The notes beneath the pieces were generated by a model. The model was not told the DNA's origin. It ran no database searches and worked only from the letters and a program-made list of their open reading frames with translations. Below, one piece after another: positions 16,745-64,000 of a DNA stretch of 64,000 nt. Position numbers and translations under genes: made by a program. This stretch comes from Apostichopus japonicus (taxonomy: Eukaryota > Echinodermata > Holothuroidea > Aspidochirotida > Stichopodidae), in assembly GCF_037975245.1 (NCBI RefSeq), contig NC_092568.1:32520501-32584500 (forward strand), read 5' to 3'. Position 1 is the first letter of the stretch. Each line of letters starts with the position of its first letter.

Positions 16745-17434
16745 CTAGGTTAGTTTAGTAGCAAGAAAGGATCAGGAAGGACACTCAAGCCCCTATTGGA
16801 GAGGGGGGGGGGGGAACAGAAGACACAAAAAATCAGACCCGATTACAATGCTGAAAGTGCTTGTCCAAAGGATTCTTAAACCTATTCACACTACTTGTAA
16901 GTACAACTTCTCGGGTAAACCATTCTTCTCATTAACAACCCTATTAGAAAACAAGTTATGCCGAATATTAATCGTATACTTTGTGACTTTTGGAGTTTGA
17001 GACAATGACCTCTGGTACAACTACTATTAGCAAACAAGAAAAAGTCGGTAAAGGATAAATTGTCAAAACCATACACAATCTTGAAAACCTGAATCAAGTC
17101 CCCACGTAACCTCCTAAGCTCCAGTGTGGTGAGATTCAACAGTTGTAACCGCCTATTATAAGGAACACCCTTTAAGGAACTAATCATCCTAGAAGCCCTC
17201 CTCTGGACCTTTCGCGAGTACTTCCTTATCCTTATAGCAAAATATGGGTTCCAAGACTGCACAGCATACTCCAGATGAGGCCTTACCAACTGCTTATAAA
17301 GTCTAACAACTCTGTCCTCTTTCAGAGTACTTCCTTATCCTTATAGCAAAATATGGGTTCCAAGACTGCACAGCATACTCCAGATGAGGCCTTACCAACT
17401 GCTTATAAAGTCTAACAACTCTGTCCTCTTTCAG
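16745..17434 (-). mobile_element. LINE 3'-end fragment, copy B (CR1/jockey-like reverse transcriptase)
   Basis: On the minus strand the sequence encodes VRPHLEYAVQSWNPYF, KVQRRASRMI, YNRRLQLLNL and TLELRRLRGDLIQVFKIVYG. These are hallmark motifs of the reverse-transcriptase C-terminus in CR1/jockey-type non-LTR elements. Further on, a shifted frame gives RGHCLKLQKS and a WNGLPEKVV-type ending. Frameshifts and the missing 5' part mark it as dead. It includes a tandem duplication at 17217-17434. Confidence 0.85.
17217..17434. repeat. Identical 109-bp tandem duplication inside the LINE
   Basis: Positions 17217-17325 and 17326-17434 look identical base for base, both starting AGTACTTCCTTATCC and ending CTCTTTCAG. 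The lack of divergence suggests a recent local duplication or an assembly artefact. Confidence 0.9.
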
Positions 17435-17451
17435 AAAACTAAACTATTTAT

Positions 17452-17977: not shown

Positions 17978-18589
17978 GCTTCACATCCGAATCAAAGTTG
18001 CTCTTCGAGTCACCGGTGAACGATCTTTCGACAAGTTTAATATTTTAGTCACGGATGTATTTTATAGGCGGCTGTTAGTGATGCTTTATAAACTAACTTT
18101 AGTTCATTTGAAACAATCATAAAAATATTACACGTAGACACGTCATTACTGTCATTTCCCAATAGAACTGGACTATTTTTAGGTATAACACGATTCAACA
18201 TTGTCACGTTACTAAATCAAACCATTTTATTGTCTCTCACATACATATAGGTGCATCATTAATCCTTCTGTAACACGTATGCCCAGGTACACAGGCTATG
18301 GAAGTAGCAGAATTATTTTTAAACAACGAAGAACACGTATGAATTTGGCAATGCGTTTTACAATATCATGAAGATTTTGAATATAGCTAAACAGGGATCA
18401 ATAAATGGCAAGTATAGGCAAATGGTTGCTGTAACCCCTTGCCCTAGCAAAGTATCAATTTAAACTGTGTTGACGTCACCGCAAACATGTTTTTATTTTT
18501 GTTGGCTGGTTTTCACTTCCTGTATTTCTTCTCACGATTCCTCCTATTATAGTTTACAACCAAGACTGGAAGAAGCGTAATGGAGTTAG
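17978..18589. other. Intergenic, nothing recognised
   Basis: AT-rich sequence between a MITE and the large minisatellite. I see no coding or RNA feature. Confidence 0.45.
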
Positions 18590-19735
18590 CCAACCCCGAA
18601 CAACACCCATCCCCTCGCCAACCCCGAACAATCCCGATCCCCTCGCCAGCCCCGAACAACCCCCATCCCCTCGCCAATCCCGAACAACCCCCATCCCCTC
18701 GCCAACCCCGAACAACCCCATCTCCTCGCCAACCCCGAACAGAACAACCCCATCCCCTCGCCAGCCCGGACAACCCCCATCCCCTCGCCAATCCCGGACA
18801 ACCCCCATCCCCTCGCCAATCACGAACAATCTCCTCGCCAATCCCGAACAACCCCCATCTCCTCGCCAACCCCGAACAACCCCCATCCCCTCGCCAACCC
18901 CGAACAACTCCATCTCCTCGCCAATCCCGAACAACCCCCATCCCCTCGCCAACCCCGAACAACCCCCATCCCCTCGCCAATCCCGAACAACCCCCATCCC
19001 CTCGCCAACCCCGAACAACCCCATCTCCTCGCCAACCCCGAACAGAACAACCCCATCCCCTCGCCAGCCCCGGACAACCCCCATCCCCTCGCCAATCCCG
19101 AACAACCCCCATCCCCTCGCCAATCCCGAACAACCCCCATCTCCTCGCCAATCCCGAACAACCCCCATCCCCTCGCCAGCCCCGAACAACCCCCATCCCC
19201 TCGCCAATCCCGAACAATCTCCTCGCCAATCCCGAACAACCCCATCTCCTCGCCAACCCCGAACAACCCCCATCCCCTCGCCAACCCCGAACAACCCCCA
19301 TCCCCTCGCCAGCCCTGAACAACCCCCATCCCCTCGCCAACCCCGAACAACCCCCATCCCCTCGCCAACCCCGAACAACCCCATCTCCTCGCCAACCCCG
19401 AACAGAACAACCCCCATCCCCTCGCCATCCCGGACAAACCCCATCCCCTCGCCAATCCCGAACAATCCCCTCGCCAATCCCGAACAACCCCCATCCCCTC
19501 GCCAACCCCGAGCAACCCCCATCCCCTCGCCAATCCCGAACAACCCCCATCTCCTCGCCAATCCCAAACAATCCCCTCGCCAATCCCGAACAACCCCCAT
19601 CCCCTCGCCAACCCCCATCCCCTCGCCAACCCCGAACAACCCCATCTCCTCGCCAACCCCGAACAACCCCATCCCTCGCCAACCCCCATCCCTCGCCAAA
19701 CCCGAACAACCCCATCTCCTCGCCAACAGAGATGA
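18590..19735. repeat. GC-rich minisatellite, unit about 25-28 bp, roughly 40 copies
   Basis: Units are built from CCCCTCGCCAA(C/T)CCCGAACAA and CCCCCATC blocks, with occasional shortened or GAACAGAACAA-containing variants forming a higher-order pattern. The unit lacks stop codons in most frames, so long ORFs (up to 400 codons) open on both strands at once. I treat these as by-products of the repeat. The minus strand carries regularly spaced G-runs. Confidence 0.95.
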
Positions 19736-57298: not shown

Positions 57299-60200
57299 CT
57301 TCAAAACAAAGGGACAGCAAATTTAATTAATAAATAGACCAAACAACTCAGAAATCTATCATTGATGTCCTAACAAATACAAGGTTTCAATCAAAAGCTT
57401 GTAGAAAGATGTTTTTGATTTTTCCTTTTCTGTTGTTGTTACAAGATCAATAAAATAGCCTGGATGGAGAAATTAACTAAACACAATTAATTTTGAATAG
57501 AATTTTCAATGTCACAATTTTAAGTTAAAAACTAGTTTAAATAAAGAGAAATGCAGATTATTAGAAGATTACTTCAAACTAGGACTGTCAAAGAAAATTA
57601 TTTCATTTGAGGAATCTCAGTCAACCAAATCATGTATCATCCAGTGGATGGCTAACATTGACTTACCATTGTGATATCATTTAATATGCTCTCTGGACCA
57701 CTGTGCTCTAAAAGCTTTGTACAAATGAAGTCTGTTAGAGTTGGCTCTTCCTCTCCGATGTACTCTACTATCTTCTTGTTAATCCAAGGCCGGATTCTTC
57801 TTTCCATCAAGTTCTGAAATGGAAAAAAAAAAAATCCATAACGTACAGTGACAACTTATCAGCAGCACTTTTATAACTATGGGTTGGTTTCTAGGTAACA
57901 CAAGACAATCACTTGAAGCAGCCAAAAACTAATGCTCAAAAACAAAGGAAGGAAACATGTTCCCTGTAGAAGTGGATCATGACAGGAAGATATACATAGA
58001 AATGCAAACGAAGATAAACAAACAAACGTTTAATAAACAGGTTGTCACAAAAACAGAGCTTGGAAAACTCATCGAAAGAGCAAACACAAAGCTTGGAAAC
58101 TCATTGGAAACGCTAAGTCCCATTGTGACAACTAAAATTTTATCTGGAGTATGAGTTGTAAAAATGGATTATAAAAGTGGGACTGTGATTTGGTATGCAT
58201 TGTACTACGGCTTCAGACTGTCACCCTCGGCAATAGGATGAGTTGATAAGGGTCGCCACCACCAACATCAGCATTGAACAGCCCGATCGTAAAATACACA
58301 GCCGTAGTATTCTGTGGTTCACTCTTTCAAATTTCTTTCTTACCAATACTTTCACTACTCTTTCAAAAATCTTTTGAATGAGAGAAATTTCTTTACTTTT
58401 TCGTTTGTAAGCAGAAGTTAAAAACAACACCTTCCTACAGTCGACAGCTAAGATTGCATTTGCTCCTACATTGATGCCGATACAGACAGAGGAGGCAAGT
58501 AAATTTCACTTACATTGTCAACGACCGACCAATCCAGTTGGTAGGCGAACAATTCTTTCTTCTCTGTCGGTATCTTTTCGATCAGACTCTTGATGGATTT
58601 CCTCTTCTCTTCTGCGACATTTGAGACGACCTTTGTCTCCTTGGCGACGCTGCTCACGGCCTTCATCTCTTCCTCTGAATAATCGATCGGGACGAGTTTT
58701 CTCTTCTTTGGACCGTGATCGCCCCCGTCTTCGTCCTGGTTGAATACTTGCTCCACCGTTAGCTTCTTCTTTCGTTTGCCTTTACCATTACTTGAGACAT
58801 TCGGACTGGAAGACGATCCTTTGATATAAAAAAGAAGGAGGAACAAATTGAGATTTTTAACCATGGGACACTAGACAAATTATGGATGTCAGACATTTGA
58901 CCTGTAATAAAATAAAAAACTAGAACACTGCTGATATTGTAAGCTCAACTGACTGTAGCTTAGAGTGACGTGTATCACCTATCGTGGGTCACATTCTATG
59001 AAATAAACTCACTTTTATTTTCTTCAAAAAAACTCTCCTCAGCTAAATCATGGACGCTTGTCAGCAAATCCCACCCCACTCCATTGACAGAGGAACTTTT
59101 CAAACATTTGGGCAAATCTCCACTCGAAGTTTGGAATGACCCTCGATCTGATTGCACACTTTCTCACATTACAACAAACATGTCACATTACCAAAATGAT
59201 CCAATATATTCATAAAAATTTCACATTTATTATCATTTCATGTATGTACATCATATCACTGAAGACAGTTAATTTAGAAAAGGATATAAAAATACATATA
59301 AACAAAGAAAAGAAGAGATGGTATCCAAGGATGCTATGACCCATCGCCAATATTGTCTGTTTACATATTGAGAGTCTGTGCTCTCTTTTCTGCTAAAATG
59401 ACATCTTCAACTTACCAAGTTTAAGTCCACTGAATCCCATACCCCTCTTGGTTTCTTTAGGAGCCTCTTCCGGTTCAGGTATTGGTTGTTCGGGGATAAT
59501 CTCCTTGGGAGCAGAAACAAAACCAAAATAGCATATCTTTAAGATCAGTTCGTTTAGCTTCATATAAACTATGTAATGATCAAAGAAGTATTTGTTCATG
59601 TGTCGATGGTGTTGCCAAACTATCAGACGAAATGAAAATTCAGTGAAGGGACACGCCGTCCTTTGGAAGAAACTGACACACATTTTTTACCTGACATATC
59701 TGACAATACAAACAACTCTTAAGGACTTTTTAACTCATTACTTTTCATTTTAAGACAGATAATACTCTTCGTTATGAGGAGTTTAATTTGCATTAGTAGA
59801 TCACTTCTATTTAAGTAGTATTCAACTACCAAAAAAAAAAACAATATCCTGTTCCAAATCAGAAATAACAATGAAAATTAATAAATTTAACATACTCTTG
59901 ACATTGTCTAATTTTTGACCGACACCTTTTCAAGCAAAGACGCTATAATTCGCTTCACTGTATTGTGAAACATCATAAAGCAAAATAGCTCAGAAAACAC
60001 ATTTGACTCTTCTTAGGCCAACAGTTACAAAACTTAACTATTTATTTACATCTTAATCACAAACTCCACGCAAACTTCCGTCCGCATTTTAACCCTACCC
60101 CCCTAGTTACGTCTTTTCCCTCTTTTCTTCATTGTTGTGAAAAAATGTAATCCATCTCACCTCCTGGACTTCTGCAAAAGCTGGTTTCAGGTTATGATGG

Positions 60201-61199: not shown

Positions 61200-61344
61200 C
61201 TGCAAGACGGGAACAGAACACATGAAGTAGCTTGCAATATGCATGTAATGAAATGGGCGGTGTTTAGTACACCAATCAATAGACACCAAGAAGAAGTACC
61301 TTTTACACTTCCTAAGAATTACTGAATGTTTTGTCCTTGCCCCT

Positions 61345-61380
61345 CTCATATATATCTATATCTATCTATATCTATCTATC

Positions 61381-61442
<62 letters not shown>

Positions 61443-61585
61443 AATATATATATATATAATTGAAATTGTAAGTGAGTTTGAAAATCCAGAACAGTGGAAA
61501 AACTTCCAGCTGCCACCGGGATTCGAACCCAGGCCTCCCGCTTTATATGCGGACACCCTAACCAACTAGACTATGGTTGTATACG
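61345..61585 (-). mobile_element. tRNA-derived SINE with (TA)n tail
   Basis: On the minus strand an A-box-like TAGTCTAGTTGG (61573-61562) and a perfect B-box GGTTCGAATCC (61529-61519) have normal tRNA spacing. The anticodon arm CCGC-ATATAAA-GCGG pairs, but the D-stem and acceptor stem do not. A short tail then runs into TA and TATC repeats (about 61345-61460). It is better called a SINE or tRNA pseudogene than a tRNA gene. Confidence 0.72.
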
Positions 61586-61886
61586 GTTGTATGTCCTGAG
61601 GTTCAAAATATATTACTGGGGGTGGGGGGTGTCGTTCTTTTTGTGTTTTGTATATTGCTATTATATACTGTAATATTTTGTTCTAATACTTTAATTATTG
61701 GGAGCCGGGCACTTAATGAAGCCTGAGAGAGTTTATTATTCTATTTACGTCACATCATGTCTCTTTTATCACTCTCTCTTCTTACCCTCTGATTATTGTA
61801 TATATTAAATGCATTATGTGAGAAACAAAAAAATGATGTGAAATATATCAATATATATCTACATATATATGTGGGCAGGGTCAAGC

Positions 61887-63704
61887 GGTAACGGAGGGAC
61901 ATTTGACTGTTTTCCTTACACATTTTGTCTCTCTTTGCATTAGTTTGACGGAGTATGTTGCAATTTCTTGTGTGGTTATCAAGACAGGTAGTTACTTGCT
62001 TTATACCCATAAACTTAATTCTTGTGGCTGTTACTGTAGGGAAAATATGGCATGATAAACATCATGGTAACGGAGGGACACCAAATGAACACGTGTTTTC
62101 ACACTTTTTTTGGAAGATGTCAAATCCACTGTTCTTAAGTTGCACTGACCATGTAACTTATATCAGGTGTTGGCTGGTACATTGCTTCACATACACCATG
62201 GAAAAATTAGATGAACAGGCATCAATTGTCAAATCTACAGCTGATTTCGTACAGTAACGGAGGGACAATTCCGATGGTAACGGAGGGACACAAAATGTTC
62301 AGTGTTGTTTAGTGTAGCCTTTTGCCTGTTTTTGCTGCTTAGATTCAATATTTTTATTGCTGTTGGACTAAAAGTTATATTACTTAGGGAAACAAGGATA
62401 AGAACATTTATCCAACAGCTATGTTCACCAAAACATTAGCAATTTTAGTTGTTAATAAATATGTAAGAAAAAATAGTACGAAATTGATTAAAAGAACAAG
62501 TTTAAACAGACCACTCTTCATCATTTAGCACTCTCTAACTGCATTATTAGCAACTGTTGGGAGGGGGGGGGGCTGGTGGCTAGTGCACTTCTAAACAAGT
62601 CAGTAAATCACATATTTACAATAGACAGTTCACATATTTACAATAGACAGTTCACATGTACTGTACTGTACCATGTGCAGAAAGGAAATTTCATTACAGT
62701 AGTACGACAGTCACATTTTGTCTTCCAAATACTACTAGTACCTTGCAGAAACCACTTGGTGCAATAATTGATACTGGGCTTAAAAGTGAAATGCTGCGGT
62801 AACTTCTAACTTTAATGATAAAACCATATATACTGTAATAATGCAGTGGTATTATAAAAATTTAACAACTATCAACAATAATAATACAAAAACATTTTGA
62901 GACATAACATGATACAGTTACAGTAGCTACTACTGTACTGCAGAGGTTCAGTATGCCTGAATGTAATATTTGTGGATTAGAAACTATAGATGAGTTAACT
63001 TCCTGTGATTTTTTATAAACTCAAAACAAAACAACAATATCATAAAAATAAAAGACAATATTCCAATCACAACTATGCTTTGAAGATGTCTGCAAACTTT
63101 TCTATTATTTTTAATCCTGATCAACAAATTTTGAGTTTGCTCTTGCTGAAGGAAAGTGGCTTTGGAAGCTCTTGCAAATGGAAGAAAATGTCCTTGATTC
63201 TCACAGCTGAAATATTGCTCACAGTTTTGAACTGGTTGGCAATCAGCAGTGTATGAATGAAAACTTCCATTCTGTACCTTCCAGCCAGTGTTTGTGGTGT
63301 GTTTTTTTTTCTAACTCAAAGGTAGCTTTACTTGAGTTCCATAACTTCACATTCTGAGGAACTTATTAATGTTAGTCAATCTGTTGTTCTCCTCACATAA
63401 ACAGGAAGTCAAGAATTCCATTTTAAGAACACAACTGCTTAGCAAGTAAACTCCCACTGGCAGGAATCTGTGCACAATCTTGCATTAAACAATTGTCCCT
63501 CCGTTACCAGTAACGGAGGGACACTACTTCACTTGTTCTTTATTTTAGCATAAAAGTAGCTAACTCCTTGGTTTAACTTTTCTTTAGTGGTTATCCCTAT
63601 GAAAGTGTTTTATACAAATTATGAAATTTTTCCAGCATTGAATGACTGAGAAATTAAAAAAAAAGTATTTTTTTGGTAACGGAGGGACAGGTAACGGAGG
63701 GACA
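61887..63704. repeat. Eight copies of a 15-bp motif (GGTAACGGAGGGACA)
   Basis: Plus-strand copies lie at 61887-61901, 62066-62080, 62253-62267, 62276-62290, 63509-63523, 63675-63689 and 63690-63704. One minus-strand copy lies at 63494-63508. The two copies at 62253 and 63509 have A for the first G. The motif is absent from the rest of the window as far as I can see. The final two copies abut head to tail, and 63494-63523 forms a near-perfect hairpin. Confidence 0.93.
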
Positions 63705-64000
63705 AATCAGGTAATTAGCAATTACTGCTAATTAACAATTTACATACATTGAAGGGGAATTATTCCTGTGATATGCATAATATTGACCATGACTACTAGG
63801 CTGTGCAAGTAATCTTTTTAAGTCATCTTTGTACTAGGAAAAATTTGGTTTTAAAAATATCCCCAAAATTCAATAATTTTTGGCATAACGCAAGTGCAAA
63901 TTGGCATGTGTTATATATGTCTATAACTTTTTATTAAATTAGTATATTTTTGTTCTGCAAGCACAGTGGTAAAATATAACTCTTTACCTATCTAGCCATA

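Follow-up and report, generated by a model that had tools for sequence, protein, structure and literature searches.

The window analyzed here is a 64-kb stretch of DNA (C8:32520501-32584500), and the genome-wide counts given below refer to its own genome, which comprises 671,581,487 bases on 35 contigs. The window contains the gene RBM25 on the minus strand, one exon of which, within 58466-58870, matches PDB 3v53 (E 5e-10). Upstream of a further exon, whose acceptor was judged by eye to be near 61200, lies a stretch with eight copies of a 15-bp motif. This stretch is probably intronic in RBM25; the next upstream exon was not seen in the window. The observed/expected ratio of CpG is about 0.2-0.5 at 1-8 kb and at about 38-57 kb, amounts to about 0.7-1.3 at about 9-38 kb, where a P450 gene sits, and drops from 0.75 to 0.18 across RBM25. 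These sharp CpG-depletion domains suggest mosaic gene-body methylation. An exon in the CpG-poor part at 38-57 kb gave a weak match to Aida_C2 (21.4 bits, cut-off 25).

Several further features were noted in the window. A tRNA-like sequence at 61508-61580 on the minus strand is called tRNA-Tyr by ARAGORN, scores 39.3 bits against the Rfam tRNA family and is adjoined by an AT repeat at 61348-61458; it looks like a tRNA-derived SINE beside the transposon described below. An open frame at 16891-17334 resembles by eye a non-LTR reverse transcriptase, has no Pfam match and overlaps a perfect 109-bp tandem duplication at 17216-17435. At 18589-19727 there is a 28-bp minisatellite of about 37 copies; on each strand several of its frames are open, for up to 451 aa.

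The motif cluster in RBM25

The motif GGTAACGGAGGGACA occurs eight times at 61887-63704, with six exact copies and two that carry A instead of the first G. Seven copies are on the plus strand and one, at 63494, on the minus strand:

61887..61901, plus strand, motif copy 1, exact
62066..62080, plus strand, motif copy 2, exact
62253..62267, plus strand, motif copy 3, first base A with C just before it
62276..62290, plus strand, motif copy 4, exact
63494..63508, minus strand, motif copy 5, exact, in inverted orientation; makes up the left half of a 30-bp near-palindrome
63509..63523, plus strand, motif copy 6, starts with A; makes up the right half of this near-palindrome
63675..63704, plus strand, motif copies 7 and 8 (starts 63675 and 63690), an exact head-to-tail pair

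When up to three mismatches were allowed, no ninth match was found in the 64-kb window. In 100 dinucleotide shuffles at the same stringency the mean number of matches was 0.66 and the maximum 3, which confirms the eight copies, six exact and two single-base variants, given in a preliminary description of this DNA. Likewise, in 1,000 Markov simulations of a 2.5-kb stretch no 14-mer was present in more than three copies, and in the window a 14-bp core is invariant across all eight motif copies. As copy 5 is inverted, positions 63494-63523 form a 30-bp near-palindrome, and an imperfect palindrome of 23 bp at 63712-63734 adjoins the last motif copy. Copies 2 and 4 have a 34-bp unit in common. Otherwise, the segments between the motifs of the window copy showed no mutual homology (132 segment pairs, best z 2.8). 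The preliminary description had placed the motif outside any tandem array; this does not hold for the tandem pair at 63675-63704 and the inverted pair at 63494-63523.

The motifs are spaced at near 179 bp. A phase test gave p 0.015 if one was free to take the better of the two motifs in every close pair and p 0.003 to 0.10 with three fixed choices, for a pattern that was spotted after the fact. The spacing weakly fits the scale of nucleosomes.

Copies, ends and target-site duplications of the element

Genome-wide, the exact 15-mer was found at 190 places and its reversed control at none. Among the 100 exact places listed of these 190, 98 are within 2.2 kb of an end match or an aligned copy, and the other two fall inside the copies L098 and L099, both of which can be aligned with the element. 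The A-first form is present at 58 places in the genome and its reversed control at 2. Among the 58, those at C9:13320646 and C17:18935423 have no element match nearby and are perhaps due to chance, given the control count of 2.

For alignment, 20 loci of 10 kb were taken, the window locus and 19 others. Each of these 19 aligns with the window locus inside the element, and in eight cases the alignment covers about 2.2 kb at 93.9-96.7%. When nine full copies were compared, identity to the window copy was 96.1-98.2% for seven of the other eight and 89.2% for L101. The full alignments share common ends, GGGCAGGGTCAAG on the left and CTTGACCCTGCCC on the right, so that the element reads GGGCA...TGCCC at its ends. 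The sequences flanking the copies differ, except for several copies in AT repeats and those inside one longer repeat. The element is present dozens of times in the genome. Its features at the window locus are as follows:

61873-64068 (C8:32582373-32584568), plus strand, copy of a DNA transposon, probably non-autonomous, 2,196 bp, with exact terminal repeats; alignments to dispersed copies end here
61873..61885, plus strand, left terminal inverted repeat GGGCAGGGTCAAG, 13 bp, exact; its partner is at 64056-64068, outside the window
61869..61872, no strand, left flank ATGT; the right flank, beyond the window, is ATAT (3/4 bases equal)

The final 68 bp of this copy fall beyond the window end at 64000, which accounts for the fact that a scan for terminal repeats and duplications within the window alone gave no convincing ends. 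The insertion point is an AT-rich stretch of the RBM25 gene.

The 13-bp terminal repeat was found at 64 places in the genome as compared to 3 for the reversed control. Facing pairs of exact terminal repeats less than 15 kb apart number 20, including the window copy, and 11 of the 20 span 2,163-2,198 bp. The searches with the ends give lower bounds, with at least 40 of 53 candidates for the right end and at least 40 of 66 for the left end. Equal 4-bp flanks are present in 11 of the 16 copies for which both flanks were examined. The duplicated 4-mers are ATAT (five times), TAAT (twice), TTTA, ATTA, AAGT and AGAA. The five copies without equal flanks are the window copy, L086, L093, C12:33122550 and C19:10721700. 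Nine of the 11 matching copies have flanks that agree over exactly 4 bp; in the C14 copy and L089 alone the agreement also covers 6 and 8 bp. At least these two sit in AT repeats, and their ATAT duplications are therefore weak evidence. The element is a cut-and-paste DNA transposon, probably non-autonomous, whose ends and dispersal are directly visible and whose 4-bp duplications are found in the sister copies.

The span of 61887..63704 given in the preliminary description was too small, the real one being 61873-64068. Its suggestion of an unrecognised DNA transposon in RBM25 is borne out by the terminal inverted repeats, the 4-bp duplication in 11 of 16 copies and the dispersed copies, the gene assignment being supported by the exon match to PDB 3v53. 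Two of the checks it had named, a genome-wide count of the 15-mer and an alignment of the loci for common element boundaries, both came out positive, with 190 places against none for the reversed control, those listed being in or near element copies, and with full copies that stop at the two ends given above. Its alternative, a cluster of host-factor sites as the origin, is not supported, because the exact 15-mers listed lie within copies of the element or close to them. The intervening DNA, which it had described as diverged or unique, is indeed without homology between the segments; it is not unique in the genome, since together with the motifs it recurs in other full copies.

Some element copies deviate from the common form. 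One form, at C16:22767608-22767956, measures 349 bp, has both terminal repeats exact and has probably arisen by internal deletion. At C12:5510536-5541233 the last about 45 bp of a copy, with the right terminal repeat, seem to be some 27.7 kb off, as if the copy had been split by a large insertion. A repeat of more than 9 kb was found at L094-L099 and L103, with about 96-98% identity from one place to another. Embedded in it is an older copy of the element, and one side of the repeat has a tandem-repeat-like stretch. No stop-to-stop frame above 135 aa was found in the two copies of this repeat that were examined; one of its frames gave a Toprim-like match below the cut-off (E 0.035).

Motif conservation and origin of the cluster

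The majority sequence comprises 2,175 positions, with motif starts at 15, 194, 381, 404, 1600 (minus strand), 1616, 1782 and 1797. The left-hand four are 15-418 bp away from their end and the right-hand four 364-575 bp away from theirs; with ++++ at the left end and -+++ at the right, the two sets are not mirror images in orientation. Over 11 rows from ten young copies, 5 of 1,093 motif cells differ from the majority as compared to 341 of 20,476 other cells. Random sets of eight 14-bp windows reach five or fewer changes in 1.7% of 20,000 draws (P 0.017); as the related copies are not independent, the lower substitution rate in the motifs is moderate evidence. With L101 included, the changes are 8/995 in the motifs and 429/18,150 elsewhere. 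A comparison of CpG alone was not significant (4/142 in the motifs, 6/90 outside, p 0.19). In the older copy L101 all eight motif positions are recognizable, with point changes. The older copies L094, L095, L098 and L103, which lie in the repeat of more than 9 kb, retain seven motifs in the alignment, again with point changes, and the first motif in the raw sequence.

The non-motif DNA of the cluster contains 7 CpG against 47.5 expected, and a CpG is present in all eight motifs of the window copy; in L089 and L090 that of motif 5 is lost. Dating of the insertion by CpG loss was considered and rejected, since the majority sequence of the element family is itself CpG-poor (13 CpG, 66 expected) and the stretches at the AIDA-like exon and RBM25 are CpG-poor too.

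Both A-first motifs in the window have C just before the A, so that a change of CG to CA could explain the variant base. At motif 3, CA is found in all ten young copies and A also in the older copies that cover the site; hence, the A there may simply be old. The center of the near-palindrome is CA in 12 copies and TG in 12 (one C5 row left out), and the palindrome is kept in 11 of the 20 aligned loci, eight with CA and three with TG. This pattern would be explained by the decay of a single central CG in either direction, and likewise by an inverted palindrome or by two subfamilies.

Taken together, we consider it probable that the cluster is one copy of a non-autonomous cut-and-paste transposon of about 2.17 kb in RBM25 and that its motifs are binding sites of a transposase or an accessory protein. 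According to this model, the transposon inserted into the AT-rich stretch of RBM25. As no gene was recognized in the element frames scanned, we infer that it must have been moved in trans by a transposase made elsewhere. The eight motifs would be putative binding sites of that transposase or of an accessory protein, a role predicted from their position, their repetition, their low rate of change and the location of the listed exact 15-mers in or beside element copies. They may have been kept because copies that lost them were no longer moved. A transposase site is disfavored by the order of the motifs, which is not mirrored, and by the remoteness of those on the right (the nearest about 364 bp from the end, as compared to 15 bp on the left).

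In a rival reading the transposon is the same and the 15-mer is the site of a host DNA-binding protein, which might for example drive transcription or open chromatin. Motifs that extend up to about 575 bp inward, unmirrored at the two ends, and that are spaced at a nucleosome-scale distance near 179 bp would be in line with such a function. However, none of the 100 exact 15-mers listed of the 190 is away from element copies, and of the 58 A-first places only 2 are without a nearby element match, a number also reached by the reversed control. Furthermore, the motif core comprises 14 bp without degeneracy, whereas most single host factors need shorter and looser sites. We regard a host-protein site inside the element as a possibility of rather low probability.

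A bolder version of the transposase-site reading is that the element represents a superfamily or lineage of DNA transposons of animals that has not been described so far. Its transposase would assemble on eight near-invariant 15-bp operators including the inverted pair, the spacing of about 180 bp could place these operators in nucleosome linkers, and they would be protected from, or selected against, the CpG loss that stripped the rest of the element. This proposal is speculative, and we would give it a rather small chance of being correct.

A rolling-circle element of the Helentron/HINE type, with the motif as a 12-15 bp subterminal repeat that has an inverted partner and a 3' palindrome, was considered on account of the inverted pair at 63494-63523 and the nearby palindrome at 63712-63734, which fit the layout given in the available parts of PMC4067079 and PMC7492417. 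According to the same parts, these elements insert within TT (PMC4067079, PMC7492417), and in mite Helentron families the subterminal repeats of 12-15 bp lie 2-4 nt inside the 5' end and about 38-60 bp inside the 3' end (PMC4067079). Here, the motifs are 15 bp from the left end and 364 bp from the right end. Once the true ends had been mapped to other positions, with genuine terminal inverted repeats and 4-bp duplications, we dropped this explanation, which is now very improbable. Regulatory sites of RBM25 under purifying selection, without any mobile element, could explain a 14-bp core that is invariant in all eight copies amid CpG-depleted gene-body DNA; as the origin of the cluster they are refuted by 2.2 kb with an equal motif layout at many places, by the terminal repeats and by the 4-bp duplications in 11 of 16 copies. 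A decayed minisatellite or locally duplicated word, at first sight suggested by the one tandem pair, the one inverted pair and the 34-bp unit of copies 2 and 4, is refuted for the window locus by the 132 segment pairs without homology and the recurrence of the layout on many contigs.

With these results, an unexplained cluster of words becomes a defined mobile element with mapped ends, which allow the element to be masked in the annotation of this genome and give a basis for dating its insertions. With the strict 15-bp motif, kept at eight positions, a search for the transposase of the family has a probe at hand, and the element would permit a test of how the operators of transposons outlast the loss of CpG in gene bodies that are poor in it. 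Outside the present genome the finding is modest, because arrays of subterminal binding sites are already known in other transposons.

Coding content and comparison with known transposons

The longest open frame of the window copy comprises 108 aa. Neither three element ORFs from the window nor three ORFs of the sister copy L085 had a match in Pfam, which may not model every group of transposases. No transposase-bearing relative was found with the end searches, which scored 40 places each and from which a partner sharing only short ends could escape. Copies of 3.3-3.5 kb exist on C4 (C4:22311497-22315025), C7 (C7:13600402-13603726) and C14 (C14:12432235-12435601), of which the C14 copy was examined over 10 bases of flank. 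In a 500-bp sample (C16:32271701-32272200) of a 12.5-kb copy on C16 (L107) there is one piece of 53 aa without Pfam match; the frame SDNTTVVTY...GGTRS of this copy resembles the RNase H region of retroelements. A 5.2-kb copy on C17 (L106), of which 2.5 kb were examined (C17:7511700-7514199), contains a nested AGGTCA-rich tandem repeat with a unit near 400 bp.

The motif itself was also searched for outside the genome. Phage sequences gave no match. Fifty-two viral contigs with one 14-mer each are attributed to chance, the collection being so large, and a bacterial contig (L053) with a 29-bp tandem repeat that holds the 14-mer is regarded as a coincidence. The literature texts searched had no match to the 15-mer or to 13-mer pieces of it, and the matches to 12-mer pieces (in 10 papers) and to the terminal repeat (in 2) were, by title and start of the abstract, none about transposons.

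The superfamily piggyBac has TTAA as its target, a sequence that is found in none of the 11 duplications. Its ends are CC..GG in the available part of PMC10045372 and those of the present element GG..CC, and piggyBac was thus rejected. Duplications of 4 bp, as found here, are described in the accessible parts of the respective reports for Ginger1/Ginger2 (PMC2836005) and for IS481EU (PMC10045372). However, the ends given there are TGTNR for Ginger1/Ginger2 (PMC2836005) and TNT..AYA, or a start with TNT or TGT, for IS481EU (PMC10045372). Both are excluded by the ends GGGCA...TGCCC, as far as those parts of the reports define the groups.

The duplications of hAT elements are 8 bp long, and hAT is therefore ruled out by the length of 4 bp in the present case. 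With respect to motif layout, there is a resemblance to this group: in the portion of PMC3143072 available to us, Ac, Tol2, Tag1 and Herves are described as having repeated subterminal transposase sites. Like these elements, the present transposon repeats a short motif inside its ends beside terminal inverted repeats, and asymmetry of the ends is known in hAT. The Herves motif, CG/AATTCAT, is unrelated in sequence to the present one, which is 15 bp long, varies hardly at all and has two of its copies arranged as an inverted pair.

Direct and inverted motif copies dispersed subterminally are likewise a point of resemblance to CACTA (En/Spm) elements, which carry repeated 12-bp subterminal sites, have ends that start with CACTA and produce duplications of 2-3 bp. 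In contrast, the ends of the present transposon begin with GGGCAGGG and its duplication is 4 bp. Sola1/Sola2 also have a duplication of this length, and AcademX has one of 3 or 4 bp according to the available part of PMC10045372. Thus, by the length of the duplication, which is the single point of likeness to these groups, membership of the element in Sola or AcademX is possible.
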